Origin: Acidaminococcaceae bacterium
Lineage (GTDB): Bacteria; Bacillota; Negativicutes; Acidaminococcales; Acidaminococcaceae
NCBI GenBank assembly: GCA_024405585.1
Contig: JAKSOM010000004.1
Location: forward strand, 1 to 21,491
Direction of reading: 5' to 3'
Length of the DNA stretch: 21,491 nt
The notes under the pieces are model-generated. The model ran no database searches. It had not been told where the DNA came from and saw nothing but the letters and a program-made list of their open reading frames with translations. Shown here one piece after another: positions 1,448 to 18,615 of this stretch. The translations under genes were made by a program, and so were the position numbers. Numbering within the stretch: the stretch's first letter is position 1; the number at the start of each line of letters is the position of its first letter.

Positions 1448-1455
1448 TCACTCCG
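1442..1455 (-). promoter_or_regulatory. In-frame TGA with adjacent restart-type signal (GGAG-N6-GTG)
   Basis: The minus strand reads GAT CCG GAG TGA AAA GTG CAT GGC. The GGAG at 1455-1452 lies six bases before GTG 1444-1442, which is in frame with the adhesin. Termination at the TGA followed by re-initiation at GTG is therefore mechanically possible. It may also be chance, because GGAG is simply the Pro-Glu codon pair. Confidence 0.35.
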
Positions 1456-4400
1456 GATCATGGCTGTTCTTAACAACGGCAGTAATGCCTGCATTTTCGT
1501 CATAACCTAATACCGCACCTCTCAAACTGCCGCTGGCAATTTGAATAGTCTTTTGGGCATCCGCCACTATATTGAAAATCTTGTTATCCCGACTTTCCAA
1601 ATCAATATCTGCATTACTGATTACATTCAAGTTATACGCACGGAGTATGGCCTCATCCTCCTGTGCCACTCTGGAATTAGCCAAATCTTTGGGATCCACC
1701 AACATAGTGGTGCCATAGGTGAATTTATCCAGTTCCACACCCGCAACCAGATTGACATTCTTACCTACAATGGCCGATTCTTTCCCCTCTTCTAAGCTGG
1801 TAACACTCTGCAAACTGATAGTATTAGCGTTAATATAACCGCCAGCAAACTTCAATTTGTCCGCTTTAAGAGCAATTACCGTCTCCGGATTATTATGATT
1901 CAGAATCAGGTCCTCTGCCATTAACAAAGTGCCATTGACCGTGATGGAAATCAGTTTTCTACCATTCTCTGATAAATCTTGAATCTTCTGCACACAGAAC
2001 ACGCCCTGTGCCGCCTGTTTTTCTCCTGTTACGGGTGCCGTGCTAACACCTTCCACCACAATGTTTGTCCCGGCGGAAAGGGTCAGCTTATTATTATCAG
2101 TTGCACTGTCCACATTCTTGATGCGGACGGTCTTGGCCTCGTCCCCCCAGAAACCGATGGAGCCATCCGCCTTAAGAGTAATGCTCTTGTTGCCGTCACT
2201 GCGGATATTGCCCTGTATATCCTGGCCACCCACATAAACACCATAAATATTGCCGGAATAGGCGCCATTTGTATCCCCTGCCGCCTCTACCGCCTGCAAA
2301 TAGATATTTCCTCCGTTTTCATTGCCTTTTCTGCCGGCAACCACATCCAACAGATTAAGGTTGACCAGGGATTTCAAATAAATATCGCCGGTAGCCAAAA
2401 GTTGCACACTGCCATCGGCCTGTACAAGGAAGGGCATTGCATTGGAACCGATAGAAAATCCGTTATTATCCGCCGCATCACCGACCGAAAGGAACAGATT
2501 CCCCTTCGTTACGATGGCCGGTCCATATTCAGGAGCGGAATAGTCAGTGAACAGATTGCCCAAACTGGTCAGACGGACTTCACCATTGGCTTTAATTTCA
2601 CCAACTTTAATATCACGGAATTGGACATCGTTGCTGTGCACATCCCTGCCCTCCAGGAAGACATGGTTCGCCACATTACCATTACTGGAATTCGTAACGG
2701 TCAAACTGCCACCGTTCTGATGCTGCACACCAATGGCAATTTTGTTGACAATAGTAATTTCCTTTTTGTCTTTGTCATACTTTGTTGTTCCCGGGTCCGC
2801 CCAGCTAATGGCACGGATATCATCAAGATGTATGAAATTACCCCTTTTATCCCTGTCATAGAGCCCCACCGTACTGATTTTTTTGACATCATCACTTAAA
2901 ATGCCCACATTGTTGGCCACTTTCAATGTGATTGATTTTCCGTAGAGATTGGGGTCCTTGGGACTGGCGTTTACGTCTGCCTCCGGATTGAAAATACTTG
3001 CCTGTAATGCATAGAGCAACTGGTCAGCATTCCAGGGGGTGTATTCTTTCGGTATTTCCGCCAGCTGCCTATCAATTTCCGCTTTACGTTCCGGAGTGGT
3101 GCCTTTCTGCTCCCGTTCCCATTCCAATACATACCTTTCACGCGCAAGTTGCTCATTTTTCATGGCAATCTGTTCTTTTGCGGTAACGCTGCCGTCATCA
3201 ATCAGACCGATGGAAGCCCATTCACTAATTAAATCCTTTTTGATTGTCTTTTCAGCATCCGGGGATTCCACAAACATTTGGGCATCCACAATACCGCCTC
3301 CGGGAACTTCAATCACCAAATCCCCCTCATGGGAAACAATCTTGCCTACCCGCAAAGTGCCGATGGTCTGCATCATATAAATTGAATTTTTAGCATCCGC
3401 ATTCACACTGGCGCTCATGCTGTTGTTGGTGTCAGCAACCTGTCCACCATTGATACACAAAACTTTACCTGCCTTACCAATACCACCGTTCGTGGAAACC
3501 AAATCAATTCTGTCGGCGTTCACCAAAGAATAGCCGTAGTTGTGATTTCCGTTCACCGCACGGTCGGCACACAGAATATCTCCCTGAGCCGTAAGATTTG
3601 CCAATGCCACGTAAGTACCATTGATGCCGCCGCCAAAGGCACCCAAATTAATATTGCCCAATGCATTGCCCTGTGCGGTTACATCAACCTTCACACTGCT
3701 GCCCGCCGCTGTGGACCAAGCATCCAAATTGACAATGTTGCCGGCGGTAATCTTGATATTTTCAATATTGCCCTTGGCGGACAAATCCACCGTCCGACCG
3801 TAGATATTGCCGCTTACCTGTTTGATTGCCCCATTGCTCTGGATATTGACCCTGCCCTTTTCATCCCCTGTTCCGTAAAGTTGGGTGTTACCCACATTGC
3901 CGTTAATGCTTATTATCTTGTCCTGTGCCACGTTACCAATGTTATTGATATTTATAACGCCATTGTCCGCCGTTGCACCGATAAAATCAATCTTGATGGG
4001 ATAATCCGCTTTTACCTTTGCTTCGTTGGTATAAGCATAGCCGTTCTTCTCCGTCCATTGGAAAACCATCCATTTGTGACAACCGTACAAACCGGTAGCG
4101 TAATACGTGGGAGGTCCGCTCTGAGTCCTCGCCCCCACAGTATGGCCGGTGTATGACCTGGAAATTTGCATAAATTCACTTTGGCTGGTAGCTTCTTGCG
4201 TAATATAGTTGCCAGGTGTACGCGCTCTTGCCTTTACAGGTTCATCTTTTACCACATGTTTATCTTCGGCTTCATCTATCAACTTCGCTATATCATAATC
4301 CTTATATTTCGACCAGCCCCACCAAGTTGCCCTCTTTTTCCCTTCATAAGTTTTAATTGTTTGTTCTGACTCACCGGAAACCCATTCGTAAGCGAGTCCT

Positions 4401-7400
4401 GACAGGGGCTGATAACTGAATGAACCGTTACCGCCACTGACATGATTTGTTGCAGAAGCATTGCCTTCATATCTGCCACTCTCAACCTTATTACGGTAAA
4501 TGGAAACATTCCGCATAAGACCGTCATCCGAAATAGTAACCTTGCCCTTCACCTCGCTCACCGTCAAATCACTGACAGCCAGGTTATGATTATAGGTATT
4601 GTTGATGTTAATGTTGCTGACCCCGTCCAAACATTTAATCAGGCCGTTGCCGGTGGATACAATACGTCCGCTCAGATAAATATCCCCACCCCGGCTGTTC
4701 ACGCTGGGAACAACCACCGTATCCGTGGCCGGATTGTAGTAGGCCGCCATTTCATAGCGGTAGGATTGAGTGGCACTGTCCCAGGCCGCACCACCCTCAC
4801 GGATGCGATAAGCGGAATTGTTCAGCACCTGTGCATCCGTCAAATCGCCGCCCTGATAACGATTCTTGATGGAATTAATTGCATTTTCATCCGCTGCTGT
4901 CAGGTTCAAGCGGTATTCGCCGTAGCCGCTTTGGATGATACCGTTGATATTGATATCCCTGCCCTGGATAAAGACCCTGTCACCGGCAATATAACCGGCG
5001 CTTTTATCGGTAACCCGGTCCCCATCATTACGGATAATAGTGGGACAATTATTCATCTTCAGAACCACATTCCTCTGAGTCTTATCTGAAGTACGATTAA
5101 GTGTAACCCGAACACCGTCCCATTGCTTTTTCACTTCCTTGCCTTTGGTAATATAAACCACCGGATGACCTGCATAACTAAAATCTACTCCCACTGTATT
5201 TGCATCTTTATCATCTTCTCCTACTATCCCCAAGGCATATGCTTCTTCACCAGTTATTGTTGCCTTATATTTGGTATCTGTTAGGTAGTCTCCTACTGAA
5301 TCACCTTCCCCCATCAATGCCGCCAATACTTTTCTGCCCGCAGGCGTTCTGTATGCTGCCACTAATTCATTATATTCCTTGTCGTAGGCAATATGGGGGG
5401 TCTGGCCGATGTTAATGGTGCTTCCCGGCGCCAGTTGTACAATACCACCCTGCTCCGCTTTCAAAGTGATGTTCGCACCACGGATACCTGAGCCATCATT
5501 ACTGTTGATCACAATATCATTATGAGCACTTTCCACAAAGACATTGCCGCTAAGGTTTTCCACCGTGCCTAAAATATAGACATCTGCAGGCAGGATAAGA
5601 GACCCTGCGGGCATAGTTTGGCCTTCAATTGTGAATGATTTATATTTAACATTGGCACCGGTCCACAAACCTCTGATTGTTATGGTGGGCACACCGTTCG
5701 CCTGGGTTACCAATGTGGGAATATTGCTTTCCCCCACACTCTTATCCACATTCAATTTTTTGATTTCTGCCCTATAGTTATCTTTAGGCAATACGTTTTT
5801 GTTGAAAGTAATCTGACCACCGAGATGGCCAACGTAAACATCATGAACTTCCAAAAGCGCACTGGTGTTGTTGGTAATTTTAACTTCCTGCATTCCGTTG
5901 GCAGTAATGGTACCGTCGCCTTTCAATGTGTCGGTTTCGATATGCACATTGCCGCCGCCAACGGTGATATTGGGAATCTTGAACCGCATATTTTGGGAAA
6001 CACGTTGGGCTCCGCCAGGAGCACCGCCGGCCAAACCGCGTCTCTCCATTTCGTTAATCAGCCGCTTTTCTTCCGCCTTTAACGCTTTATAGACAGCACT
6101 GTTCTGTCCGTCAAAACTGTATTCGCCCAACAATGTTTGAATTTCGTTCAGCCGTTTATCCGCATCGGCAGCCACATCCACCAATTCGGGTTTCAATGCT
6201 TCCTTATTGATACCGGTCAGACGGTAAAGGGCCGCCTCTTTTTCTGCCACCGTACCACTCGCATCATCCACAAAACCGAAACTAATGTATTGTCCATATT
6301 GGTCGGCAGTATAAACAGCAGCCGTATTACCAGCACCCTCAAGATAAGATTTAGTTGCTTCGTCAGGCACAATAATAATAGGGTTCTGGTCTTTCAGACC
6401 GATATAGATTTCAAAATTATTCAAAATGCCGGCTGTAACCTTACCTTTGACATCCACAAAATTATTTCTTGTTACGCTGGAATCAGTCTTTCCGTTGGAA
6501 CTGGTAACAAATTCATCTTTCAAATTATTTCTGTACCAACAATAGGAACCGTTCTTGCGGTTAATGGTTTCCAACCCCTTGTCCGCATAAATATCCACAT
6601 CACCAATGGAATACACCTCCGCACCGCTGCCAATAGTAACCTGATTGTTTTGGGTCAAATTGCTTGTAATATTGGAATAGGGGATGGTAATGGCACCGGA
6701 GGTAAAGGTACGGCTGCTCTCCTGCAAAAGCAGTCTGCCCAAAACATTCTTTTCGTCCAAATTGGTAAAGAGATTAACATCTTTATAACTGAAAATCTTG
6801 CCCCCATTGACATTAATCTTGTTGTTACGGTTAACGGTGTCTTGAAGATGGGCACCCGCCCCGGCAAATAACAAGGAGAAGGTGTGTTCGGAAAAACCCT
6901 TGGCGCTGGCATCCGTAATATCCGTCGCCACCAAATAAATGTCCGCATTGTTGTCCAGGGTGAGAAGTTCCGTGGTTTTGCCGCTGTCCTGATTAATATT
7001 GACCTCATCCGTCTCATTGATGGTACTCTTGACAACGGAGTTGTTGCCGCCAACTGCAAAACTGGAAGAAACGGCTGACTGGGTGACATAGATATGATGG
7101 TCACCGTAGCTGCCCACCACCAAATTACCCTTGGAGTGCAGTGTGCTGTTGGTGACATTTGTTCGGTTCGTTATATTCATAACGTTGGTCAGGTAAGAAC
7201 CGCAACCGGCGGCAAGCCCGCCCCTGTTGGAACCATAGAGCATAAAGTCACTGGGAGTGCCTTCATCCACATTGAACTTCTTGTTCAAATCAAACATGGT
7301 ATTGGCTTTGACCGTCAGGGTATCCCCTGTGGTAATATTGGCCGCATCCAGATTGGTGGTGCTGTTCACGGTAATATTATTGTTCACCTTAATACCGGAA

Positions 7401-10400
7401 CCGCCCACAATATTGCCGCAGTGACCGTCCGCAAAAAGATACAAATCGGAGGAATGCAAACTTTGAATATCCGCCTTGCCAGCCACTACAAAATTACCGC
7501 CGACGCTGACGGAAGTATTAAAAGACATTTCATTCTTCACGCCTGCCGCCACCGGACTGATTTCAATAATGCCACCATCATAGGCACGGGTGTGGACAGT
7601 GCCGTTTCCCGCAGAATTGGCTTTAATCTCCAATGCTTTTGCTTCAAGGTCAGTCCCCTTCGCCACGGTAAACCCGAGGGAGGTGGTGTTCTTTGTATAG
7701 TTGCGGGTATAGTTGGTACCGGTGCAGATGCCGATGGCCACATCCGCATTTTTCAGGTTATTATCTATATCCAAAACATTGTTGGCAAACACATGCCAAT
7801 CCGCCACGCCTGCTACACCAGTCAAACCATTGGCAGTCCGGTAAGCATTCGCCAAAGACGCATTACTCTTAATATTGCTGAAATTCGTGGAGGTATTAAC
7901 AACGGAGGTGGTACGTCCCTTGTTCACACCTATCTCCAATGCGGCGGACACACTGGTTACATTTTCATTCACTGTGAGTTTTGCCTGATGTCCGTTGTTG
8001 TCAGAAAGTCCGTTAACCACCTGCACATTATCTGCAAAAATACTGGTATCACTCACATCCATGGAAATTGTCTTGTCGGTGCTTGTTTCACTTTTATTAC
8101 CCAGCCAAGCAGTAGCCAAAGTACCCTGTCCGCTGGCAATTTTGCCGCCGCCGTAAGAAATCCCACTTTCCAACTGAGGTGCAAGAATGTTTTCAAAAGT
8201 AATACTGCCATTACTGTAAAGTGTTGAACTACCGACCCCCGCTGACTTGATATCCATCTTCATAGTGCTGTTATCAACAGTTTCCGCTTTCAGATAGGCA
8301 CCTGTCAAAACACTGGAACCGACAGAAATAACTTCCGCTCCCAGTTTCAAGGTATCCAGATTACGGAAGACCTGACCACTAAGACCAATCAGGTCACTAT
8401 TTTCCACGTTCACCTTTGTCTCACCTTTACCGGTAGCGGAACTTTTCACCACCGTGGCCGTAACGCCTTGTATCAATCTGGCATCTTCGCTGTGAACATT
8501 AACCTCTCCCTCTACAGCATTACCGACAAAAACATTGCCTGCCTTAATCTTGGCATTCGTAATATCTACGCTATTGTTTTGCTGCAATGTCACATAGTTT
8601 TTAAGGACATCAACACCAAGTGCTGCAACCATCGGATAACTGCCGCTGGTGGAAGTAATATTGTTCTTAGTAGTGGTGTCAAAGTTAGCAGAACCGGCCG
8701 AATCAATGTTAACCCCATTAACCTTGGTATGCACACCGGACGTAAATGTGGCCGAAGTGGGTATATCTGTGGTTTTCTGCTTCAAACCGCCCAATGGTCC
8801 CATATCTGACCAGTCACCGTAGAACTTGTTATTTTTGAATTTATTGTTGTTGAGTGCATCTTTAAGGATTTCCCGGGAATCCTCTTCCGCTTTGTAAGCG
8901 GCATCCAACTTCTTGTCATTGACGGTTTTACTGTTGTTTTCACCCAAATTCTCATTCGCATTATCAATGGTGGCTTCAGTAACTTTATCGGAGTAGGTAA
9001 CAACATAAGTGCCGCCACCTACAAAACCGATATTAGTAACAATGTCAGAAACGGCAACTTCCAAACCGCCTATTACCACCTGTAAAATTTTGTCCGTAAC
9101 ATTTCTAACCTCATTGGCCTTGACTTCTGCATTATTGACGTAAATTTTATTATTGTTGCCCGTCACTTCCGCATTGGTGGTGGTATTAAGGGTATTACGT
9201 ACCCGGTTGACACCGACAGCAATAACAGATGCTCCAACGGACACAGAATTGAATTTCTCCGTAACGTCCGTGTCAGCCACAACCTTCAGGTTCCCCCCAC
9301 GCTTACTCTCAGTGCCGATATTCGTATTATCAACCTTTGCCAAAACGGAGGAATTATAAGTATTGTTCCAAACTGCCACAGCAGAGGCAATTCCCAAATT
9401 AACACCAGCAGCAATAGCAAACTCTTTGCTGGTCAGGTGACTTTCTTTCTTGGCGGTAATTTCATCAGCTGCCACCGTACCGCTGTTATGGGTAACAACG
9501 CTGTTCTGCAACAGGGAAATGGTCTTGGAGTCATCCGTAAACTTGTAAACGGACACACCGGTAGCCAAACCGAACAAACCGAAAGTCCCGGCAGCACCGA
9601 CGCCGGTGGCATTTACCGTATCTTTTTTGAAAGCATTCACGGTCATACCCTGATTATCAGTATTCACATGGTCAACCTGGGCCAGGGTAATACCTTTCAA
9701 ATTAACATGGGTGGTGGCAACGGAAACCGCCCCGGAAACGTTAATAGGCGGCTTACCCATAGCCAACTGGGCAAGTGCTAAGGGTGTAATGGCAATGGAA
9801 ACCCCGGCACAGGCGTTAACAACATTATCCGTCTGGGTTGAATTGGCATCCACCTTAAAATTCTTGGCATTGATGGTACTCTTATTACTGCCGTTCTCCC
9901 CTGCCGCCAAGGCCTTGACACTACGATTGTTATCTTCCACCAGCACACCGGCACCCAACACAATCTCCACATTAAACTTGGGTGACACACCAACATGCAA
10001 TTGGACATCCGCTGTGGTGGAATCCAATCTTATATCATCCTTAGCCGTAACCTCCACAGCCGCCTGAGAACCGGTAACACCCTTATTCACATCGGTCTTA
10101 TACAGCCGTGCCTTGGTTTCACCGCTAATCTCATTATCTGAAACCACAGCATTGGCTGCAAGAGAGAAATTTGTCTTAGCAGAACTATTCACGGCCAAAC
10201 CGCCGCTGAACACCACATTTTTGTTTTTGTGGAAAGCGTCCGCATTCACATAAAACCCGTTCCCCACCTTAAAATCGGAATTCAGCACAGCCGCTATGGT
10301 GCTGCCGGTAATGGTATTCACCGCCACACTGGCACCAAAGCCGAAACTGAGGTTCGTGGTTGCACCTGTACCTACCTGAACATTCGCCGCACCCACCACA

Positions 10401-13400
10401 TTGGTAATCTTCTCTTCCGACTTTGCCTTCACCGTAGCGGTTTTACCCACCGCTACTTTAGAATTCTCCACCAAAGCAGTAGTATCGTTCTGCAATTTAT
10501 TCTTGGCCACATTCGCCAGAGCATCAAGAGAAAATGATGTTACAGTAGTCGGATCAATATTCAAACCGGTGGCAAGAGAAATGCCCACATTGGTCAATGT
10601 GTTGTCGGAAAGGGCAATGACCTCCATATCTTCCGTCTTGAAAGCATTGTTATTGCCGCCGGTGACACCGTTAACATGGGCCTTGGTAGTCATGACGCTG
10701 TCATTGGTGGCCACACCTGCCGCCCCCACAATGCTTGATTCTTTGCCGATGGAAGCCCCGTCCGCACTGGTGGTCATCTTCATAGTATTGTCCGCCCGCA
10801 CTTCCATCTTCTTGGCACTAAGATTGTTGTTCACGGAGATGGTGGAAAGTGCTACTGCGGCTTCCACATCCTTATAATTCTTTGCCTTAGCCACGCTGCC
10901 GTTCAGTCCGAATGCCGCTGCCTTATCATATCCGCCGCCTACAGCGATGGTGGTCAAATTGGAATTATCCTTTGCCCCAACCTTCAGGGCAGAATCCGCC
11001 CCGGCCAAGGTAATGGCCGTGTTTTGAATTTTGGCAAAATTATGCTGATGCTTCTTTACATCTTCTTCACCTATATAGGACTTGGCGATATGCACACCGC
11101 CGCTCACCTTGGAACCGCTAAGTCCCACCGCTACGGCAATGGCTTTTTCCGTACTGGTGTCGTCGGTGGTAACAGAAATGTTCCCCCCATTGGCAATTAC
11201 CGATGCCTTGGTATCGGTCTTATCCACAAGGGCCTCCGTACTATTGGTACCGCTATTGAAGGCATAAGCGCCACGCAATACACCCCATCCGCCCTTATCG
11301 GGGACAAACTCCACATCGGCATTAACTTCCGCTGCAATGGAATGCATAGTGAAGTTGTTTACCGCATTAACGGTCAAATCTGTTTTCTTCCCACTGTTAT
11401 ATCTGGCCAAGTTCGTGCCTAACATTTTGGCACTGGTCAGATTGTCCAGCATTCCCTGCGCCCAAGTCAAACCGCCGGATACTTTATTTTTTCCGCCGGA
11501 TTTGAAAGCGCTTAAAGCACCGGCCACACTTACAATGTTGGTCAGGTCATTGGCATAAATATAAGTTTTGTCCGCTTTCAAAGTACTGTTTTGAACCAAA
11601 GCCCCAACTCTGTCCTTAACATTATTCACCACCACAGAACCTGCCGCCTGCGCACTCGCCGGATCTCCCGTGCTGACAGCCAAACCAGCAGCCACAGCCA
11701 CCAATCTGCTGTCCGCTTTGGCCTGTGCCGACAGGGCGTTACTGCCGTCAGATGCTTTGGCGGTAATGCTGCCTCCGGAGATTGTTGTATCAAACGTATT
11801 GGTCAGATTGTTTGTAACCCCTCCCCCCAGTGCCTTAAATATCATTCCTTCACTGCCCACATCAATGGGGGCAACTACACCAAAGCTTACCATGGTGTTA
11901 CCCTTTTTCCCACCATCAGTGAATTTTCTGGTCTTATACGTCACTTCCGGCGGATCGTCCTGGTTGCCACTGGGGTTATCCTTGACATCCATATCCACAT
12001 CGCCGCCGGTGCTGTTCGCCAATTCCAATGCCCATTCGCCTTCAATATCAAAACCCCTCTTCTTCAGATAGTCAACATAAGCGTTTTTGTTACCGGAGGA
12101 TATGGAAAGCACACCGTCCCAGGCCAACATATCCACCTTGTTGGCAGTGATATTGGCATTCTGAGAGATTGACTTGACCGTATTTGTAATAGTATTGGTT
12201 GCGCCTGCCCCCTGGCCGGTAATTTTTCCGGCTCCCTTGAGTTGCAGTCCCACAGCCACCGCACCTGCCACCTGTTTGAGTTGGGAATTGGCATAATTTT
12301 GGAAGGATTTTACATCGTAGGTGCCCTCCTCCACTCTTGCCTCAATGGTGTTGGTAGTATTATTGAGAGCTGTCGTAACTCCCAAGCAGGCAAAATCATT
12401 ACCGGCGGCGCTGAGATTAAGTCCGCCCGCCACCTGAATATCCCTGGCGGCGGCAACATTATTAACCACTGCGTTACGAGAATTATCAGTGGTCACTTTT
12501 TTCAGTACGGCTTTTACCGTGCTATTTACTTTATTCTTGGAAACGGAAGCACTGGCATCTATCTCCTGCTCAGAGCGTTCCTCCATGGATAAACCGGCGC
12601 TCAATCCGGCCGCCACCTGTGTTCCCGTACTGTCGGCAAAATTTTCAACTTCCACCGCATTGACAATATTTGTACCCCAAACCTCCGTCACCGTGTTACG
12701 GGTAATATTATTCAACGCCACCGCACCGGCCAGTCGCCCGCCCGGATTAGCATCTCCGCTCTGGGTTATATGGAACGCTACCGCAGCCGCACCGCTGATG
12801 GCACCAATAAAACCGCTGTCCGCAGCATTAATTTTCAAATGCCCCGCATCAACGGTGGCCGTAGGTGCATGCAAAGCCAATTTGGGTGTCTCCAAAACCG
12901 CATCCGTACGGCTGACAAAATCGTTAACAGATACGCTGCCGGCAATACCAACCTCCGGCACCGTACTTGACTGCACGTTTTCCCAACGGGCATCCGTCTC
13001 CGTTCCTGTCAATGTAATATTCAGACGGAAGCCGGAGGTCTTGGCATCCAAAGTCAAACTGTCCGCATCAATTTCCCCGTCCGTCAGTGTTGTGCCTGTT
13101 CTGCCGGCTTGGGCATAGTCCGCCCCCAAAACCATTTTAAGTCGTTCGATGAAGTCCGCCGCCTCCCTGTCCTTGCGGGGATTAGCTTCGCCAGAGGGCA
13201 AAGTTATGGTCTTCCCGTCCGCTGATGCGTCCTGAATATCGTTATCCGCCACCATCGCCAGGTTATCGATACCAAAATCCATAACCCCCACACTGGCACC
13301 AATGCCTATGCCGCTGGCTTTAGTAAGATCCACCACCGCCGAAGCCAGCACGGACTTGTTGATGCCCTGCATAGTAATAATTTTCTCGGCAATCAACCTT

Positions 13401-16400
13401 GCCTCATCGTCAACACCAACATAACTGTAGTTATGGCCCTTCATCACCGCCGCCATACCCGTCAGGCCCAGCTTCATGGCCTTGCCGCCGCCAAGCACCG
13501 CAGCAATATCCACGTCATTACTGATGCTGTTCACATCCACATTGCCGCTGCTCTTGTGGGTCCTACTGTATTTGTTTATGATGTCTTCTGTCGTGATGAC
13601 AATACCCTTCTTTTCGTCTTCCCCCATTTGGTAGGAGTTCAACACTGTGGCGTTATGATAAGGTAACGCATAGGGAGAAGGATCACCGGTTGTATTTTTT
13701 GTCCGGATTTCCGCACCTTCAGACACCAAAACCACAGCATCGTTTTCTATGCTGTTTACAGCCACGTTACCGCCAATAGCAAACCTGCCGGAAGTGTCGT
13801 AGGGTGTGGGTATTTTAAAAATAGCTAGTGATTTCTTGCCGGTCAGAACATTGATGGCAATCTGCTTTTCATTGGCCCCGATATCCGCCCTGCCGGCCTC
13901 AATCTGCACATTTCTGCCAATAACTGTATTGGCGGAACTGTCGCTGTGGAAATAAGTCGCCGCCCCGGAGAATGACAGGGAATTATGGTCAGGATCTGCG
14001 TCTTTGCCTGACTGGGCTGTAGCCGCAATATTAGTGCCCAAACCTACCGGATCAAACGCTTTGGGAATTTCAACAATCAAGTTGAGCACTGTCATTATAA
14101 GGTCCGCCGGATTGTGTTGCACCGGTGCCTTAAAAGCCAGGTCTACTACCTTTCCGCCCTTTCCCGCTTCGCCGTCAGTTGTATAATCCCTGCTGTCATG
14201 GTCGATAAACTTCTTCTCGGACTTCAAAAGGTCATAGGCCTCATTAAAGGACTTTTGGTAATCGCCCTTAAATTCGTTCGCCATTTCACTCATACCATTG
14301 CCAGTTTTCAGCTCAACTTCCTGAAGCCGTGCAATAACATCATCCATGTAGAGGGACCCGTCATAAGTGTTGTAATTGGTATCGTTTACCACATTCCAGT
14401 CACCCTCGGCAGTAATGCCAAAGACCCTTTCAAATTCTTGGGTTACTTTTTTACCGTGAGTGAAAACGTCACCGATAGCAATGCCAAAATACTTGAACTG
14501 CTCCGGTAAACTCTTGATTCCTTTTTCCTTGTTGCCCACGAAGATGTCTTTAAGATTATTGAACCAACTGATGGGTTTATATCCCCCCACCAAAGTGGTG
14601 GAATTGATAGTCACCGTACCTTGAGGAGCATAGATATCCGCCGCCGGCAGATATATTGGTTCCTTCCCGTCTATTTTTTGTGCTGTTGTCTTGCCGTCCC
14701 TGGCATCAATCACCACATCCGCATTATTAACGATATCCTCAACAGATGCACTAAGCGCCGCAGAAACCGCCTGCCCTTCCATTCTGGCAGTGTCGGTCAT
14801 ATTCGAATTGGTCGAAATACTTATCGGTGCGACGGATGCATCGGCGGCAATGGTCAAAGCGGGAGTAATTTTATTAGCATCTTTGGTGGTCTGTAAATCC
14901 GGCCCCATTGCATAAACCTTGGCATCTTTGCCAACTTCAACCTTGGCGTTGTTCTTCACCTTCGTAATGGCAACAGACGCTCCAAAATCAAACTTATCAA
15001 AAACATTTGGACGTGACGGAGGATTGCCGGCACCGATAACGGGCTCATCTGCACCATTCTTACCAATCTGACCCATAAATTTGAACAATTCCTGCAGGAA
15101 CAGGAAATTAACTTGTTTGTCTTCGGGAACAAGAATCTTGAACGCCTCCGGGGGCAATCTCCACTCCGTTGTTCCATAGTTAAGCACCTCTGCCAATTTG
15201 GAGGCATTGTTCACACTGTTGACGTTGCTGGAAACATTGGCATTCGCCATAATATTGACCAGTCCTCCGGAGTTTACGGAACCCTTGATATCCGTATTGG
15301 CATTACCGTCCATTTGTATATAGCCCACACCAGTATTGAAGGCGGCACGCTGGTCGGTTGACATTGCAATCTGATTGGTGCCTCCCGTATCCGTCACAGC
15401 CCCCAACACCGCCGCAGTACCGGCATCAATGTTGGCATCTTTCCCGATAGTCAGCTTGGCATTATTCTTGACAATATCAATGCCTACAGCGGCATTGGCA
15501 TAGCCGGAGTAGGATTCACCCACCTTATGTTTATTAGCCGCAATAGTCGGCATGGTGGTAGCATTCGCTGCAGATATTGCCATCGCTTGCACGGTGCCGC
15601 CGGCATTCAGGTCTCCCTCAATATCCACATTGCTCATGCTGTCCAAATTTACCATGGCAAAGTTAATGTTTTCGTAGGGATGCTGCCCGCCCAATACGTC
15701 ATAAGTCGTATTGGGAGTTACACTCCGCATTGCGGCGCCCACCACAGTTGACATACCCTGGACAGTGATATCATCGGTTGCCGTAACCTTTGCAGTTCCA
15801 CTTACTTTGACATCTGCTTTCGCAGTTGCCTTAACAAATGCTATCGGGTTGTTCATAAGGAACGGAAAGAGATTTTCCTTGAATGCGTCAATAAAGTATC
15901 CGGCATAGTAAGCAGGATTAAAAGCATCCAATCCTTCCGTCAGAACCTTCATAATAATCTCTTCCGTGAAGTCGCTGGGACCGGAATGCATACCCACACT
16001 GGTGGCATTGGCATTGATATCCACGTTATGCCCCGCCTTAATCGTTCCGTTCACGCCCACATTGGCTTTGGCATTGAGAAAAGCCAACACCAAAGGAAGA
16101 TCGATACCCGAGGGGGAAGCATCCGCTGTTGCGGTAATATTCACACTACCCGCACTATCAATCACCGCCTCCTTACCAACCTCTATATTGGTCTTGATGT
16201 CGGCAGAACCGGTCACAGTTTCCGCACTGAGCTTCTCAATGCCCAGATTTGCCTGCAAAGTAACCGTACCATCACTACGTATACCCTGGTGGCTATCCAC
16301 AAGGTAATAGACGTCTTTCTTCTTCTTCTCGCCGTCCTCACCCGTCTCTTCCACAACTTCCTTTTTCAGTTTCAATCTGTATTTGCCGGCGGTGTCAGTG

Positions 16401-17233
16401 TCAAAGTCAGCGGGCAACGCATAGGCAAAACCCTCTATGCCCTTGGTATTCACAATATTGCTGAAATCCACACCATTGATGATGCGTGCCTGATAGTCGC
16501 CGCTAACCTTCAGCGTACCGTCATCGTTATAGACCGGCTCACCTTTTTCGTTGGTCTCCAAATCTTTACCCACCACGATATTGGCGGCCATAAAGCGGGA
16601 CTCAACACCGGTACGGACAGTACCGTTAATAACAATGGATCCGGATGGGTTCAGAGGAATATCACCGGTAATCATCCCCTTCAATACATCAGTAGCAGTA
16701 TTCGTAGCCCCATCATCCAAAGCAGTAAAGGCCTTGGAAATAAACCTTTCCTGCGGGGCCATAACTGTCAGTGCCCCCGCATTAATGGCACCTTTCTCGC
16801 CCACCAACATACCGTTGCTGCTGATAAAGTACATATTGCCGCCAATCCTGTTGTTGCGGATGCCGTTCACCGTGCCTTCAATATTGATACGGTCCTTGAC
16901 AAAGTTCAACAGATGGGTGGCAGTATAGGTTTTTTCCTGGTTATGGAACTGCATATTGGCAATTTCGCTCTGCTTTACATTGAATTTATCGAAAACATTC
17001 ACACCAACTGCACCGCTTTGTTTTCCAACGTAATAATCACCCACATTGCCATTAATCTTCGTTACACCGCCATCACTGCGGACAACCCCATCCAACGGCG
17101 CCGCATAGGCAGGACTAAAAGACGGCCAGGCAATCACCCCCGTCATCAGGAATGTCAACACCGCTTTTCGCAGCAAATTCTTTTCTCTCCTCTTGTCTCC
17201 ACCAAAAGATTGGGAACTTTTGTACTTTGTCAT
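1448..17233 (-). CDS. Giant secreted filamentous adhesin, leukotoxin LktA / filamentous-haemagglutinin-like
   Basis: The product is 5,261 residues if started at ATG 17233, which has GGAGG eight bases upstream; a GTG at 17248 lies inside that RBS region and is rejected. Residues 1-44 form an extended signal peptide: a polar Lys/Arg-rich n-region, then a hydrophobic core (about 24-40), ending AYA before APLDG. Residues about 46-170 resemble the FhaB-type secretion domain, with NRIGGNMYFISSNGMLVG matching the family's N-P-N-G-type region. The remainder is a very long beta-solenoid with recurring rungs of the VAVNxxxNxxxAxV type. It is interrupted by charged or aromatic non-solenoid blocks near residues 420-470, 678-738, 882-1080, 2755-2832, 3608-3748, 3946-4065, 4275-4412 and 4670-4763. 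By family it should be a surface or secreted adhesin/toxin contacting host cells. No TpsB-type transporter gene is in the window. It stops at TGA 1450-1448, but the frame continues open beyond, so this is probably a truncated form. Function is inferred from family. Confidence 0.9.
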   Translation of the reverse strand: MTKYKSSQSFGGDKRREKNLLRKAVLTFLMTGVIAWPSFSPAYAAPLDGVVRSDGGVTKINGNVGDYYVGKQSGAVGVNVFDKFNVKQSEIANMQFHNQEKTYTATHLLNFVKDRINIEGTVNGIRNNRIGGNMYFISSNGMLVGEKGAINAGALTVMAPQERFISKAFTALDDGATNTATDVLKGMITGDIPLNPSGSIVINGTVRTGVESRFMAANIVVGKDLETNEKGEPVYNDDGTLKVSGDYQARIINGVDFSNIVNTKGIEGFAYALPADFDTDTAGKYRLKLKKEVVEETGEDGEKKKKDVYYLVDSHQGIRSDGTVTLQANLGIEKLSAETVTGSADIKTNIEVGKEAVIDSAGSVNITATADASPSGIDLPLVLAFLNAKANVGVNGTIKAGHNVDINANATSVGMHSGPSDFTEEIIMKVLTEGLDAFNPAYYAGYFIDAFKENLFPFLMNNPIAFVKATAKADVKVSGTAKVTATDDITVQGMSTVVGAAMRSVTPNTTYDVLGGQHPYENINFAMVNLDSMSNVDIEGDLNAGGTVQAMAISAANATTMPTIAANKHKVGESYSGYANAAVGIDIVKNNAKLTIGKDANIDAGTAAVLGAVTDTGGTNQIAMSTDQRAAFNTGVGYIQMDGNANTDIKGSVNSGGLVNIMANANVSSNVNSVNNASKLAEVLNYGTTEWRLPPEAFKILVPEDKQVNFLFLQELFKFMGQIGKNGADEPVIGAGNPPSRPNVFDKFDFGASVAITKVKNNAKVEVGKDAKVYAMGPDLQTTKDANKITPALTIAADASVAPISISTNSNMTDTARMEGQAVSAALSASVEDIVNNADVVIDARDGKTTAQKIDGKEPIYLPAADIYAPQGTVTINSTTLVGGYKPISWFNNLKDIFVGNKEKGIKSLPEQFKYFGIAIGDVFTHGKKVTQEFERVFGITAEGDWNVVNDTNYNTYDGSLYMDDVIARLQEVELKTGNGMSEMANEFKGDYQKSFNEAYDLLKSEKKFIDHDSRDYTTDGEAGKGGKVVDLAFKAPVQHNPADLIMTVLNLIVEIPKAFDPVGLGTNIAATAQSGKDADPDHNSLSFSGAATYFHSDSSANTVIGRNVQIEAGRADIGANEKQIAINVLTGKKSLAIFKIPTPYDTSGRFAIGGNVAVNSIENDAVVLVSEGAEIRTKNTTGDPSPYALPYHNATVLNSYQMGEDEKKGIVITTEDIINKYSRTHKSSGNVDVNSISNDVDIAAVLGGGKAMKLGLTGMAAVMKGHNYSYVGVDDEARLIAEKIITMQGINKSVLASAVVDLTKASGIGIGASVGVMDFGIDNLAMVADNDIQDASADGKTITLPSGEANPRKDREAADFIERLKMVLGADYAQAGRTGTTLTDGEIDADSLTLDAKTSGFRLNITLTGTETDARWENVQSSTVPEVGIAGSVSVNDFVSRTDAVLETPKLALHAPTATVDAGHLKINAADSGFIGAISGAAAVAFHITQSGDANPGGRLAGAVALNNITRNTVTEVWGTNIVNAVEVENFADSTGTQVAAGLSAGLSMEERSEQEIDASASVSKNKVNSTVKAVLKKVTTDNSRNAVVNNVAAARDIQVAGGLNLSAAGNDFACLGVTTALNNTTNTIEARVEEGTYDVKSFQNYANSQLKQVAGAVAVGLQLKGAGKITGQGAGATNTITNTVKSISQNANITANKVDMLAWDGVLSISSGNKNAYVDYLKKRGFDIEGEWALELANSTGGDVDMDVKDNPSGNQDDPPEVTYKTRKFTDGGKKGNTMVSFGVVAPIDVGSEGMIFKALGGGVTNNLTNTFDTTISGGSITAKASDGSNALSAQAKADSRLVAVAAGLAVSTGDPASAQAAGSVVVNNVKDRVGALVQNSTLKADKTYIYANDLTNIVSVAGALSAFKSGGKNKVSGGLTWAQGMLDNLTSAKMLGTNLARYNSGKKTDLTVNAVNNFTMHSIAAEVNADVEFVPDKGGWGVLRGAYAFNSGTNSTEALVDKTDTKASVIANGGNISVTTDDTSTEKAIAVAVGLSGSKVSGGVHIAKSYIGEEDVKKHQHNFAKIQNTAITLAGADSALKVGAKDNSNLTTIAVGGGYDKAAAFGLNGSVAKAKNYKDVEAAVALSTISVNNNLSAKKMEVRADNTMKMTTSADGASIGKESSIVGAAGVATNDSVMTTKAHVNGVTGGNNNAFKTEDMEVIALSDNTLTNVGISLATGLNIDPTTVTSFSLDALANVAKNKLQNDTTALVENSKVAVGKTATVKAKSEEKITNVVGAANVQVGTGATTNLSFGFGASVAVNTITGSTIAAVLNSDFKVGNGFYVNADAFHKNKNVVFSGGLAVNSSAKTNFSLAANAVVSDNEISGETKARLYKTDVNKGVTGSQAAVEVTAKDDIRLDSTTADVQLHVGVSPKFNVEIVLGAGVLVEDNNRSVKALAAGENGSNKSTINAKNFKVDANSTQTDNVVNACAGVSIAITPLALAQLAMGKPPINVSGAVSVATTHVNLKGITLAQVDHVNTDNQGMTVNAFKKDTVNATGVGAAGTFGLFGLATGVSVYKFTDDSKTISLLQNSVVTHNSGTVAADEITAKKESHLTSKEFAIAAGVNLGIASAVAVWNNTYNSSVLAKVDNTNIGTESKRGGNLKVVADTDVTEKFNSVSVGASVIAVGVNRVRNTLNTTTNAEVTGNNNKIYVNNAEVKANEVRNVTDKILQVVIGGLEVAVSDIVTNIGFVGGGTYVVTYSDKVTEATIDNANENLGENNSKTVNDKKLDAAYKAEEDSREILKDALNNNKFKNNKFYGDWSDMGPLGGLKQKTTDIPTSATFTSGVHTKVNGVNIDSAGSANFDTTTKNNITSTSGSYPMVAALGVDVLKNYVTLQQNNSVDITNAKIKAGNVFVGNAVEGEVNVHSEDARLIQGVTATVVKSSATGKGETKVNVENSDLIGLSGQVFRNLDTLKLGAEVISVGSSVLTGAYLKAETVDNSTMKMDIKSAGVGSSTLYSNGSITFENILAPQLESGISYGGGKIASGQGTLATAWLGNKSETSTDKTISMDVSDTSIFADNVQVVNGLSDNNGHQAKLTVNENVTSVSAALEIGVNKGRTTSVVNTSTNFSNIKSNASLANAYRTANGLTGVAGVADWHVFANNVLDIDNNLKNADVAIGICTGTNYTRNYTKNTTSLGFTVAKGTDLEAKALEIKANSAGNGTVHTRAYDGGIIEISPVAAGVKNEMSFNTSVSVGGNFVVAGKADIQSLHSSDLYLFADGHCGNIVGGSGIKVNNNITVNSTTNLDAANITTGDTLTVKANTMFDLNKKFNVDEGTPSDFMLYGSNRGGLAAGCGSYLTNVMNITNRTNVTNSTLHSKGNLVVGSYGDHHIYVTQSAVSSSFAVGGNNSVVKSTINETDEVNINQDSGKTTELLTLDNNADIYLVATDITDASAKGFSEHTFSLLFAGAGAHLQDTVNRNNKINVNGGKIFSYKDVNLFTNLDEKNVLGRLLLQESSRTFTSGAITIPYSNITSNLTQNNQVTIGSGAEVYSIGDVDIYADKGLETINRKNGSYCWYRNNLKDEFVTSSNGKTDSSVTRNNFVDVKGKVTAGILNNFEIYIGLKDQNPIIIVPDEATKSYLEGAGNTAAVYTADQYGQYISFGFVDDASGTVAEKEAALYRLTGINKEALKPELVDVAADADKRLNEIQTLLGEYSFDGQNSAVYKALKAEEKRLINEMERRGLAGGAPGGAQRVSQNMRFKIPNITVGGGNVHIETDTLKGDGTITANGMQEVKITNNTSALLEVHDVYVGHLGGQITFNKNVLPKDNYRAEIKKLNVDKSVGESNIPTLVTQANGVPTITIRGLWTGANVKYKSFTIEGQTMPAGSLILPADVYILGTVENLSGNVFVESAHNDIVINSNDGSGIRGANITLKAEQGGIVQLAPGSTINIGQTPHIAYDKEYNELVAAYRTPAGRKVLAALMGEGDSVGDYLTDTKYKATITGEEAYALGIVGEDDKDANTVGVDFSYAGHPVVYITKGKEVKKQWDGVRVTLNRTSDKTQRNVVLKMNNCPTIIRNDGDRVTDKSAGYIAGDRVFIQGRDININGIIQSGYGEYRLNLTAADENAINSIKNRYQGGDLTDAQVLNNSAYRIREGGAAWDSATQSYRYEMAAYYNPATDTVVVPSVNSRGGDIYLSGRIVSTGNGLIKCLDGVSNININNTYNHNLAVSDLTVSEVKGKVTISDDGLMRNVSIYRNKVESGRYEGNASATNHVSGGNGSFSYQPLSGLAYEWVSGESEQTIKTYEGKKRATWWGWSKYKDYDIAKLIDEAEDKHVVKDEPVKARARTPGNYITQEATSQSEFMQISRSYTGHTVGARTQSGPPTYYATGLYGCHKWMVFQWTEKNGYAYTNEAKVKADYPIKIDFIGATADNGVININNIGNVAQDKIISINGNVGNTQLYGTGDEKGRVNIQSNGAIKQVSGNIYGRTVDLSAKGNIENIKITAGNIVNLDAWSTAAGSSVKVDVTAQGNALGNINLGAFGGGINGTYVALANLTAQGDILCADRAVNGNHNYGYSLVNADRIDLVSTNGGIGKAGKVLCINGGQVADTNNSMSASVNADAKNSIYMMQTIGTLRVGKIVSHEGDLVIEVPGGGIVDAQMFVESPDAEKTIKKDLISEWASIGLIDDGSVTAKEQIAMKNEQLARERYVLEWEREQKGTTPERKAEIDRQLAEIPKEYTPWNADQLLYALQASIFNPEADVNASPKDPNLYGKSITLKVANNVGILSDDVKKISTVGLYDRDKRGNFIHLDDIRAISWADPGTTKYDKDKKEITIVNKIAIGVQHQNGGSLTVTNSSNGNVANHVFLEGRDVHSNDVQFRDIKVGEIKANGEVRLTSLGNLFTDYSAPEYGPAIVTKGNLFLSVGDAADNNGFSIGSNAMPFLVQADGSVQLLATGDIYLKSLVNLNLLDVVAGRKGNENGGNIYLQAVEAAGDTNGAYSGNIYGVYVGGQDIQGNIRSDGNKSITLKADGSIGFWGDEAKTVRIKNVDSATDNNKLTLSAGTNIVVEGVSTAPVTGEKQAAQGVFCVQKIQDLSENGRKLISITVNGTLLMAEDLILNHNNPETVIALKADKLKFAGGYINANTISLQSVTSLEEGKESAIVGKNVNLVAGVELDKFTYGTTMLVDPKDLANSRVAQEDEAILRAYNLNVISNADIDLESRDNKIFNIVADAQKTIQIASGSLRGAVLGYDENAGITAVVKNSHDPE

Positions 17234-17241
17234 AATGAACA

Positions 17242-17246
17242 CCTCC
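17242..17246 (-). promoter_or_regulatory. Strong ribosome binding site fixing the adhesin start
   Basis: GGAGG on the minus strand lies eight bases before ATG 17233-17231. It settles the start in favour of MTKYKSSQ; the longer reading from GTG 17248 would begin inside this site. Confidence 0.85.
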
Positions 17247-17270
17247 ACTTGCGCTTGGCAAAATTCTCAC

Positions 17271-17293
17271 GGGCGTATGGAAGACACACGCCC
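17271..17293 (-). promoter_or_regulatory. Stable hairpin in the adhesin 5' leader
   Basis: Arms GGGCGTGTG and CATACGCCC form a 9-bp stem (one G-U pair) around a 5-nt loop. It lies about 22 nt after the predicted transcription start and 25 nt before the RBS. No U-run follows, so it is not a classical terminator. It could stabilise the very long mRNA or bind a regulator. The role is inference; the structure is direct. Confidence 0.5.
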
Positions 17294-17302
17294 ACAGCTA
17301 AA

Positions 17303-17320
17303 CATATACTAATATATATG
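17303..17320 (-). promoter_or_regulatory. Inverted repeat at the adhesin transcription start (possible operator)
   Basis: CATATA-N6-TATATG forms a perfect 6+6 palindrome just downstream of the -10 box and spans the predicted start near 17315. A repressor could bind here. Such A/T palindromes also arise by chance in A/T-rich leaders, so confidence is low. Confidence 0.3.
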
Positions 17321-17321
17321 T

Positions 17322-17350
17322 ATCATAAACCCCCCCCATTTTTTTGTCAA
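17322..17350 (-). promoter_or_regulatory. Sigma-70-type promoter of the giant adhesin gene
   Basis: A perfect -35 box TTGACA (17350-17345) and a -10 box TATGAT (17327-17322) are separated by exactly 17 bp. The predicted start is near 17315, giving a leader of about 80 nt before ATG 17233. The spacer contains eight consecutive G, so any slippage there would change the -35/-10 distance directly. Confidence 0.8.
17330..17337 (-). repeat. Homopolymeric G8 tract inside the promoter spacer (candidate phase-variation switch)
   Basis: Eight G on the coding (minus) strand lie between the -35 and -10 boxes. It is the longest G/C homopolymer I noticed in the window; tracts inside the adhesin reading frame reach about six. 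Poly-G or poly-C spacer tracts are the established slipped-strand switch of Neisseria porA and opc promoters. The G8 length here gives the optimal 17-bp spacer, which predicts an ON state. Confidence 0.6.
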
Positions 17351-17399
17351 TCTATATTTCAAAAATTTAATCGCTCAGTTGCAAAACGAAATTCCCGTT

Positions 17400-17442
17400 C
17401 GTAATGCGTATTTCCCGAGCTTGTTCATTGCACTACATTACG
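17400..17442 (-). promoter_or_regulatory. Upstream inverted repeat (CGTAATG / CATTACG)
   Basis: A perfect 7-bp inverted repeat has arms at 17400-17406 and 17436-17442, about 50-90 bp upstream of the adhesin -35 box. Nearby, CAGTTGCA occurs twice, in the regions of 17375-17382 and 17485-17492. The placement suits activator binding, but no known regulator motif is recognised. Confidence 0.2.
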
Positions 17443-17504
17443 CAATCTTAAATACTCACTTTTCCATCTTAGGTCACTCGTTTTTCAGTTGCACACACAA
17501 AATA

Positions 17505-17537
17505 AAACAACGCCGTCCGAAATGAACAGCGTTGTTT
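17505..17537 (-). terminator. Intrinsic terminator of the 291-residue protein gene
   Basis: Arms AAACAACGC (17505-17513) and GCGTTGTTT (17529-17537) form a 9-bp stem with a 15-nt loop. On the minus strand it is followed by a T-rich tail (TTATTTTG). It begins three bases after the TAG stop at 17540. It separates that gene from the adhesin promoter, so the two are independent transcription units. Confidence 0.85.
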
Positions 17538-17539
17538 TT

Positions 17540-18415
17540 CTATGCGGGGAACAATTCCAACACTTCACAATAAAGATAAACCTTTGCCGGCAACCACCCT
17601 TTTCTGTTATAGCGTATCTTGAAATGGCTGAGCAAGGACAACAAAAAGTTTTTTGCAGGGAATCCCAACTCCTGTGGCAAAGACACTAACCCCACACACT
17701 GCGGCAAAATTTGTTCCCTGCCGTCTCCAAAGCCCCAACGGCTAATTGCCTGCAATAATTTTTTTGCCTTTTTCTGTTTGAAAAATACATGCGGTTCCGT
17801 GCCGGGAATCCAACCCAAAATATCAATTCCCAGAGTATCTCCCCAGCTGCCGTCCGGCATTTTATCCACATGAACAAAAATTTTCTGCCACTGCAACTCT
17901 TCCAATTCCTGTAATTTTTCCGCTACAGCCGCCGGCAACTCGCCCCACTGCAATCTTTGTAACATATCTCTTACTGAAGCAGTCCGCCAGGGCATTATCT
18001 TCCTGTCAGATTTTTCAGCCGGCATAAAAACCATACGACGGGGTGTATTTTCCCTCCCCGTCATCAAACCAATCTGAATAAGTCCCCAATCTTTAAAAAC
18101 AGGTTTACGCACCTCCAAAAACAATGAGGGCTCCGTTGTTTTGCCTTGTGAAGTGTCAAATTCCAGGTAAAACGGGTACGGCAAATTTTCATTAACATAA
18201 CGCCGGGAAATAGTTAAATCCGCACCGGCGGGACCCGTCATGGGCATCTCCAAATAATACTGACTGTCCCACTGGTTCGGTACGGAAAAAGCATGTTCCG
18301 TCATCACTTTTTCAATAAATGACCCGCTGTCACCCAAAAGAACAGCACCACCATGATAACGCAAAACATCCAACCAAAAATGTACCGCTTTTGTAAGTTG
18401 GGAAACACTATACAT
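17540..18415 (-). CDS. Unrecognised soluble protein, 291 residues
   Basis: The start is ATG 18415-18413 (MYSVSQLTKAVHFW), preceded by AAGGA with seven bases between GGA and ATG. A longer reading from TTG at 18511 has no RBS and would begin close to the predicted mRNA 5' end, so it is rejected. There is no signal peptide or membrane segment, so the protein is probably cytoplasmic. It is Trp-rich, with recognisable stretches LFLEVRKPVFKDWGLIQIGL near the middle and KIFVHVDKMPDGSWGDTLG followed by GIDILGWIPG in the second half. A short Leu/Glu/Gln-rich helix (AVAEKLQELEELQWQ) links the halves. The C-terminal region ends KIRYNRKGWLPAKVYLYCEV. I do not recognise the family and assign no function. 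It has its own promoter and terminator, which argues against an operon with either neighbour. That this is a real gene is well supported by the RBS, promoter, terminator and protein-like composition. Confidence 0.85.
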   Translation of the reverse strand: MYSVSQLTKAVHFWLDVLRYHGGAVLLGDSGSFIEKVMTEHAFSVPNQWDSQYYLEMPMTGPAGADLTISRRYVNENLPYPFYLEFDTSQGKTTEPSLFLEVRKPVFKDWGLIQIGLMTGRENTPRRMVFMPAEKSDRKIMPWRTASVRDMLQRLQWGELPAAVAEKLQELEELQWQKIFVHVDKMPDGSWGDTLGIDILGWIPGTEPHVFFKQKKAKKLLQAISRWGFGDGREQILPQCVGLVSLPQELGFPAKNFLLSLLSHFKIRYNRKGWLPAKVYLYCEVLELFPA

Positions 18416-18505
18416 ACAAGATTCCTTTCTTTTCAATACATCTGCACAAATCTGTAAAGAAAACTTCACCAAGGACAGGCCCATGCAACGCCATGTGCGG
18501 TTATT

Positions 18506-18525
18506 AAGCAAGTTTTCTTTTGCTT
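18506..18525 (-). promoter_or_regulatory. Small stem-loop at the predicted mRNA 5' end
   Basis: AAGCAA (18506-18511) and TTGCTT (18520-18525) form a 6-bp stem with an 8-nt loop. It starts about 2 nt after the predicted transcription start of the 291-residue protein gene. A 5'-end hairpin of this kind may protect the transcript. It is weak and may be incidental. Confidence 0.25.
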
Positions 18526-18533
18526 GTTTTTCT

Positions 18534-18542
18534 ATTATAGCA
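18534..18542 (-). promoter_or_regulatory. Extended -10 promoter (TGCTATAAT) of the 291-residue protein gene
   Basis: The minus strand carries a perfect TATAAT (18539-18534) preceded by TG-n, the extended -10 form. No good -35 box lies at 16-18 bp, which is typical of extended -10 promoters. The predicted start is near 18527, giving a leader of about 112 nt before ATG 18415. Confidence 0.65.
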
Positions 18543-18615
18543 TAATACCGCCCCGCAAAGATAGTATCCTAAAAAAAATTATGATTAAAAAAGCGAGGGA
18601 CTGTTCCTCAAAATT

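Follow-up and report, generated by a model that had tools for sequence, protein, structure and literature searches.

A G8 tract in the spacer of a candidate promoter for a giant adhesin gene, found in a gut-type Acidaminococcaceae bacterium related to Phascolarctobacterium, most likely marks a transcriptional contingency locus like those of Neisseria porA and fetA, and one of a class-wide set. On balance, we favor reading TTGACA and TATGAT, 17 bp apart, as the housekeeping-sigma promoter of this gene, with the G8 between them as a slip-prone contingency tract. The window, meaning the whole 21,491-nt stretch analysed, corresponds to contig 206 of an assembly that is 80.9% complete (G000; 1.19 Mb in 271 contigs). 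Since many relatives carry similar runs in the promoters of surface genes, the G8 is probably a slip-prone dial for surface proteins.

Promoter anatomy and isolation of the adhesin gene

Read directly and by script, the minus strand from 17350 to 17322 consists of TTGACA, AAAAAATGGGGGGGGTT and TATGAT (Table 1), exactly the hexamers, 17-bp spacer and G8 of the original prediction. The spacer has the form AAAAAATG8TT, with the tract in its 3′ part and without ACAA. Between the −10 hexamer and the adhesin ATG (17231–17233) lie 88 nt; the predicted 89 bp is the same distance, counted to the A of the ATG. GGAGGTG is located just 5′ of this ATG. TTGACA-N17-TATNAT occurs twice in the window against 0.00 expected, and the G8 promoter is the window's sole site scoring at least 10/12 with a run of at least six G or C in a 16–18 bp spacer. 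With 11/12 matches it also ranks highest among five promoter-like sites in 17200–18600, where 3.0 are expected by shuffling. Because TTGACA-N16–18-TATAAT is found 19 times in the window's assembly and 0 times when the pattern is reversed, the promoter consensus is meaningful in this organism.

The terminator-like hairpin in Table 1, of a type for which ~1.9 sites are expected by chance across the 1.4-kb region, splits the adhesin gene from its upstream neighbor. The adhesin therefore probably needs its own promoter, for which the G8 promoter is probably the obvious candidate. The N-terminal domain of the encoded protein belongs to NCBIfam NF012204, the leukotoxin LktA family filamentous adhesins (131.3 bits; cut-off 60). 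At the other end of the gene, an ORF of similar character (2–1444) goes on in the same frame past the TGA at 1448–1450 on the minus strand and runs to the contig end, so that either the gene is interrupted there or the assembly is in error.

The leader folds in an ordinary way, no better than shuffles (z −1.02), and an Rfam scan of 17100–18600 gave zero matches above gathering scores. In 41 genomes, the leader had DNA homology only to parts of paralogues that encode signal peptides and to the terminator stretch. By eye, GTGTGTCTTC was seen in the hairpin loop of the window leader (17233–17315) and in that of the leader behind the G9 tract L013.

Table 1. Features of the adhesin locus, read from the sequence, and two further G-tracts of the same assembly
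Feature	Position	Strand	Remarks
Giant adhesin ORF, ATG to in-frame stop	1448..17233	−	>5,200 codons
Leader, −10 to ATG	17234..17321	−	short hairpin
−10 hexamer TATGAT	17322..17327	−	direct reading and script
17-bp spacer AAAAAATGGGGGGGGTT between TTGACA and TATGAT	17328–17344	−	holds G8
G8 tract, candidate slip-prone element in promoter spacer	17330..17337	−	direct reading and script
−35 hexamer TTGACA	17345..17350	−	direct reading and script
Terminator-like hairpin, 15 pairs	17504..17538	−	behind co-directional upstream gene
G9 tract L013	G000:C200:8882–8890		~160 nt before POMP-repeat ORF, at contig end; no clear promoter boxes
G7 tract L208, L079	G000:C239:17389–17395		in AAAAAATGGGGGGGT, same letters as window tract; boxes 14 bp apart

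Spacer tracts in the genome, the family and the class

Members of the adhesin family were collected as a set of 27 LktA loci, four of them without an assigned start; two of these four, the window and a paralogue on contig C252, were read by hand. No G6 or C6 lies upstream at any of the 23 loci whose start was assigned, a count with doubtful starts at L028 plus a few other loci and with <140 bp of upstream sequence at L028 and L034. The C252 paralogue has a TTGACA promoter without a tract. Since the other LktA loci examined are tract-free, the tract is a trait of the window gene and not of the adhesin family, and LktA orthologues are ruled out as tract carriers.

Tracts of at least G7 number 55 in the window's genome (from 64 overlapping matches), with 43 in ORFs and 12 outside, the latter counting the window G8, which overlaps an antisense ORF and was assigned by hand. 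Surface or envelope genes lie behind four of the 12: the window G8, the C200 G9, the C239 G7, in front of a signal-peptide-like protein without a family match, and a G8 on C1, which precedes a Polysacc_synt_2 gene without lying clearly between promoter boxes. The remaining eight, judged by eye, are in repeats (four), at ribosome-binding positions (two) or near contig ends (two). The loose promoter pattern gave two sites in this genome (window and C239) against one reversed, a weak enrichment that would not convince alone. The nearest named relatives, both in the window's genus, are Candidatus Phascolarctobacterium caballi (G001) and, as a MAG, a Phascolarctobacterium sp. (G002). In the latter, two signal-peptide-like proteins, one of them with LOFI repeats, have a G8 and a G9 tract 199 and 326 nt upstream. 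G002 also has a G11 (L104, G002:C1:36254–36264) ~320 nt upstream of a gene that looks like rpoB by eye; none of these three tracts is clearly flanked by promoter boxes. Two more tracts, a G9 (L174, G002:C6:148086) and a G8 (L178, G001:C255:1861), are inside ORFs for membrane-type proteins and are candidate coding-frame switches; a by-eye assignment of L174 as a membrane acyltransferase was dropped, as no Pfam match was obtained at 1e-3.

Genome sets for the wider searches had one genome per species, and the 59-genome family set includes Succiniclasticum ruminis DSM 9236 (G062). Across 380 genomes of the class, TTGA...G7...TATAAT gave 87 matches in 47 genomes against one for the reversed pattern, 26 of the 87 being in the family. 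The broader TTGA-N2–12-G7-N1–11-TANNNT gave 51 matches in 21 of the 59 family genomes against 10 for the reversed pattern, with double counting where two readings of a site overlap. Seven genomes of genera g17, g16 and g11 (G018, G053, G055, G024, G059, G060 and G061) account for 31 matches against 0 reversed, with 15 against 0 in G018 alone; six further genomes of these genera had zero matches to this pattern. The poly-C version was found 15 times in 13 genomes of the class, against seven reversed, and 11 of the 15 are C8–C13 tracts in genus g56. G is thus preferred over C by 87 to 15 in the class and by 26 to 0 in the 59 family genomes, a preference that slippage alone does not predict.

Outside the family, 60 of 61 matched sites were read, the remaining one being in G337. 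Tracts there extend up to G16, and the long ones (G9–G16) often have spacers off the optimum. A 16–18 bp spacer was seen in 22 of 63 readings (three sites were read twice); the others range from 9 to 29 bp, mostly 12 to 22. Some of the off-optimum sites are surely chance or mis-assigned boxes; many off-optimum copies would also be the pattern expected of a switching set.

In g16 and g17, the tract belongs to a conserved cassette, approximately CTTGAC-G7/8-ACAA..GTG.TATAAT plus a common upstream stretch; 13 to 19 cassette sites were extracted in each of three genomes. Sites matching GGGGACA-N4–9-TATAAT are present in all four g16 genomes, including two without a TTGA-type match. Among 59 extracted sites from g16, g17 and other family genera, 36 have G7, 19 G8, two G9, one G10 and one G6. 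The window tract is not a member of this cassette, as it does not directly follow the −35 hexamer and has no ACA.

Genes behind tract promoters include those for autotransporters, YadA-type adhesins, SLH porins, a TonB receptor, RTX-repeat proteins and surface-sugar functions. Twenty proteins were picked for family scans as interesting-looking: 14 behind spacer promoters, the C239 protein behind a weak one, four with upstream tracts and one with a coding tract. Twelve of the 14 match Pfam over the cut-off, the families being autotransporter barrel, YadA head with ESPR (two), TonB-dependent receptor, SLH, RTX repeat with DUF3060, bacterial sugar transferase (two), family 2 glycosyltransferase (two), MBOAT and acyltransferase. 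In a crude test with genes behind tract-free consensus promoters of the same six genomes as controls, a secreted, surface or RTX character was apparent for 27 of 47 genes with a tract promoter and for 7 of 27 controls (Fisher p = 0.015), in counts that include paralogues, sister-species copies and visible errors in both sets and that drop 14/61 tract and 4/31 control sites without a usable ORF. Non-surface cargo was also recognised by eye, including genes for XRE-type regulators, dynamin-like, AAA-like and CsoR-type proteins and others. In G055, two copies of a G-tract promoter, with G10 (L100) and G9 (L101), precede paralogous XRE-type regulators, so tract length may reach regulators too.

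Some near-identical promoters differ in tract length. Between G053 and G055, 10 promoters pair at ≥0.77 identity, and the G count differs in six of them and the spacer length in five. At L241/L235, the run is shortened by substitutions alone; swapping two pairs of near-identical porin paralogues brings their lengths into agreement and leaves 3/10 different. The 80-bp flanks of these pairs contain 12 indel events, of which the three most diverged pairs account for nine. L244 (G7) and L229 (G8) form the cleanest pair, with 80-bp flanks that are 95% and 99% identical and free of indels. Poly-C tracts L386 (C9, G160) and L392 (C8, G200) have four substitutions and no indel in their 80-bp flanks. 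Within one genome, L317 (G10) and L318 (G12) have a base change beside the tract and are identical downstream as far as shown; the flanks of L332 (G8) and L334 (G9) are more diverged. What is compared here is one assembly or copy with another, not members of a single population, and some of the differences may be assembly errors.

Proposed slippage and alternative explanations

We infer that replication slippage at the G8 would produce G7, G9 and so on, leaving TTGACA and TATGAT 16, 18 or more bp apart. The altered spacing would lower transcription of the adhesin gene, and larger changes would shut it off. The assembled G8 state would represent the 17-bp optimum, that is, high transcription. 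That the promoter is phase-variable, as originally predicted, is partly supported, by the class-wide excess of the arrangement, the frequent surface cargo and the length differences at other near-identical promoters; against it stands the absence of the tract from 23 LktA-family loci, which, with the tract-free C252 promoter, is the main result against a special role in the window gene.

The same absence from every orthologue and paralogue examined would fit a G8 that arose by chance or is neutral in an ordinary constitutive promoter, with length changes that are rare or hardly matter. A G8 alone is unremarkable, with ~2 expected per window from dinucleotide shuffles, several of the 12 tracts outside ORFs in this genome have no surface gene behind them, and the own-genome pattern stands at only 2 vs 1 reversed. 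We nonetheless consider this explanation rather unlikely, given near-consensus hexamers exactly 17 bp apart around the tract and the 87 vs 1 excess in the class. More doubtful still is a G-run that serves as a constant element, recognised by a regulator or RNA polymerase as an operator or through an effect on spacer shape. Such a role would suit the g16/g17 cassette, in which ACAA, TG before TATAAT and the common upstream stretch are shared and 55 of the 59 sites have G7 or G8, as well as the strong bias of G over C and the C-run/G-run palindromes in some spacers before genes that look CsoR-type by eye (L054, L060, L383). In contrast, the window tract has neither ACAA nor a palindromic C-run, lengths in the class reach G16 and C13, and near-identical promoters differ in tract length. 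The G-over-C preference and the conserved cassette do hint at an added sequence role, against pure slippage.

Inversion of the promoter is very improbable here. Surface variation in gut bacteria is known to arise through invertible promoters, but no good inverted repeats flanking the promoter were found in 17200–17560, where, apart from the terminator, only two inverted pairs turned up, both weak or short (18 nt at 72%; 10 nt at 90%).

A slip-prone G8 in the adhesin promoter would have its place in a larger set. We think it likely that the Negativicutes, diderm Bacillota of gut, rumen and mouth, have a class-wide phasome in which spacer poly-G tracts (and poly-C in g56) stochastically retune autotransporters, YadA-type adhesins, SLH porins, TonB receptors, RTX-repeat proteins and surface-polysaccharide genes; two Acidaminococcaceae genera would have spread one conserved cassette over many unlinked genes per genome, and the window adhesin would be an independent instance. 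If this is true for many surface genes of commensal Negativicutes, much strain-level surface variation, touching adhesion, phage receptors and immune recognition, would be heritable noise that is readable from tract lengths. Read sets already available from gut, rumen and mouth could be used to score it, and single-consensus assemblies would hide it.

Relation to known systems

Phase variation through spacer homopolymers is well known in Neisseria pathogens, in which opc also has a slipped-strand promoter homopolymer. The kind of mechanism is therefore already known and the window site is a new instance; the class-wide set, if reads confirm it, is worth attention. In the open-licence literature, as far as its text was available, no report of it was seen for Phascolarctobacterium, Acidaminococcaceae, Selenomonas, Veillonella (among the matches listed), Veillonellaceae or Negativicutes.

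The window protein is a member of the LktA-family filamentous adhesins (NF012204) by its N-terminal domain, whereas the G-tract promoter is not a trait of that family. With the g16/g17 cassette the window shares a spacer G7/G8, sigma-70-like boxes, surface cargo and membership in the Acidaminococcaceae; the cassette tract directly follows the −35 hexamer and is followed by ACAA, whereas that of the window is in the 3′ part of the spacer without ACAA. A G-run inside a promoter spacer is also a feature of CsoR-type operators, which we take the palindromes before the regulator genes at L054, L060 and L383 to be. Those operators are palindromic; the window tract has no C-run partner and, without a C-run/G-run inverted repeat, was rejected as an operator of this type.

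The closest parallels are described in the accessible portion of PMC5320596, which describes spacer phase variation of fetA (poly-C) and cites porA (poly-G), in agreement with the porA precedent invoked in the original prediction. PhasomeIt-type surveys, in the excerpt of PMC5953494 at hand, take tracts ≤200 bp from the ATG as transcriptional candidates. As at porA and fetA, the window has a homopolymer between −35 and −10 of a gene for an outer-surface product, here the adhesin with its NF012204 domain, and a change in length would alter the spacing (PMC5320596, same portion). The window differs in phylum and in cargo, and its phase variation is a prediction. The fetA tracts in that portion, C10–C14, are longer than the window G8; its table also lists a tract of G7 or G8 for a large surface lipoprotein, with variation indicated in one of its two passage columns, so that the G8 of the adhesin promoter is short, yet in principle not too short to vary.
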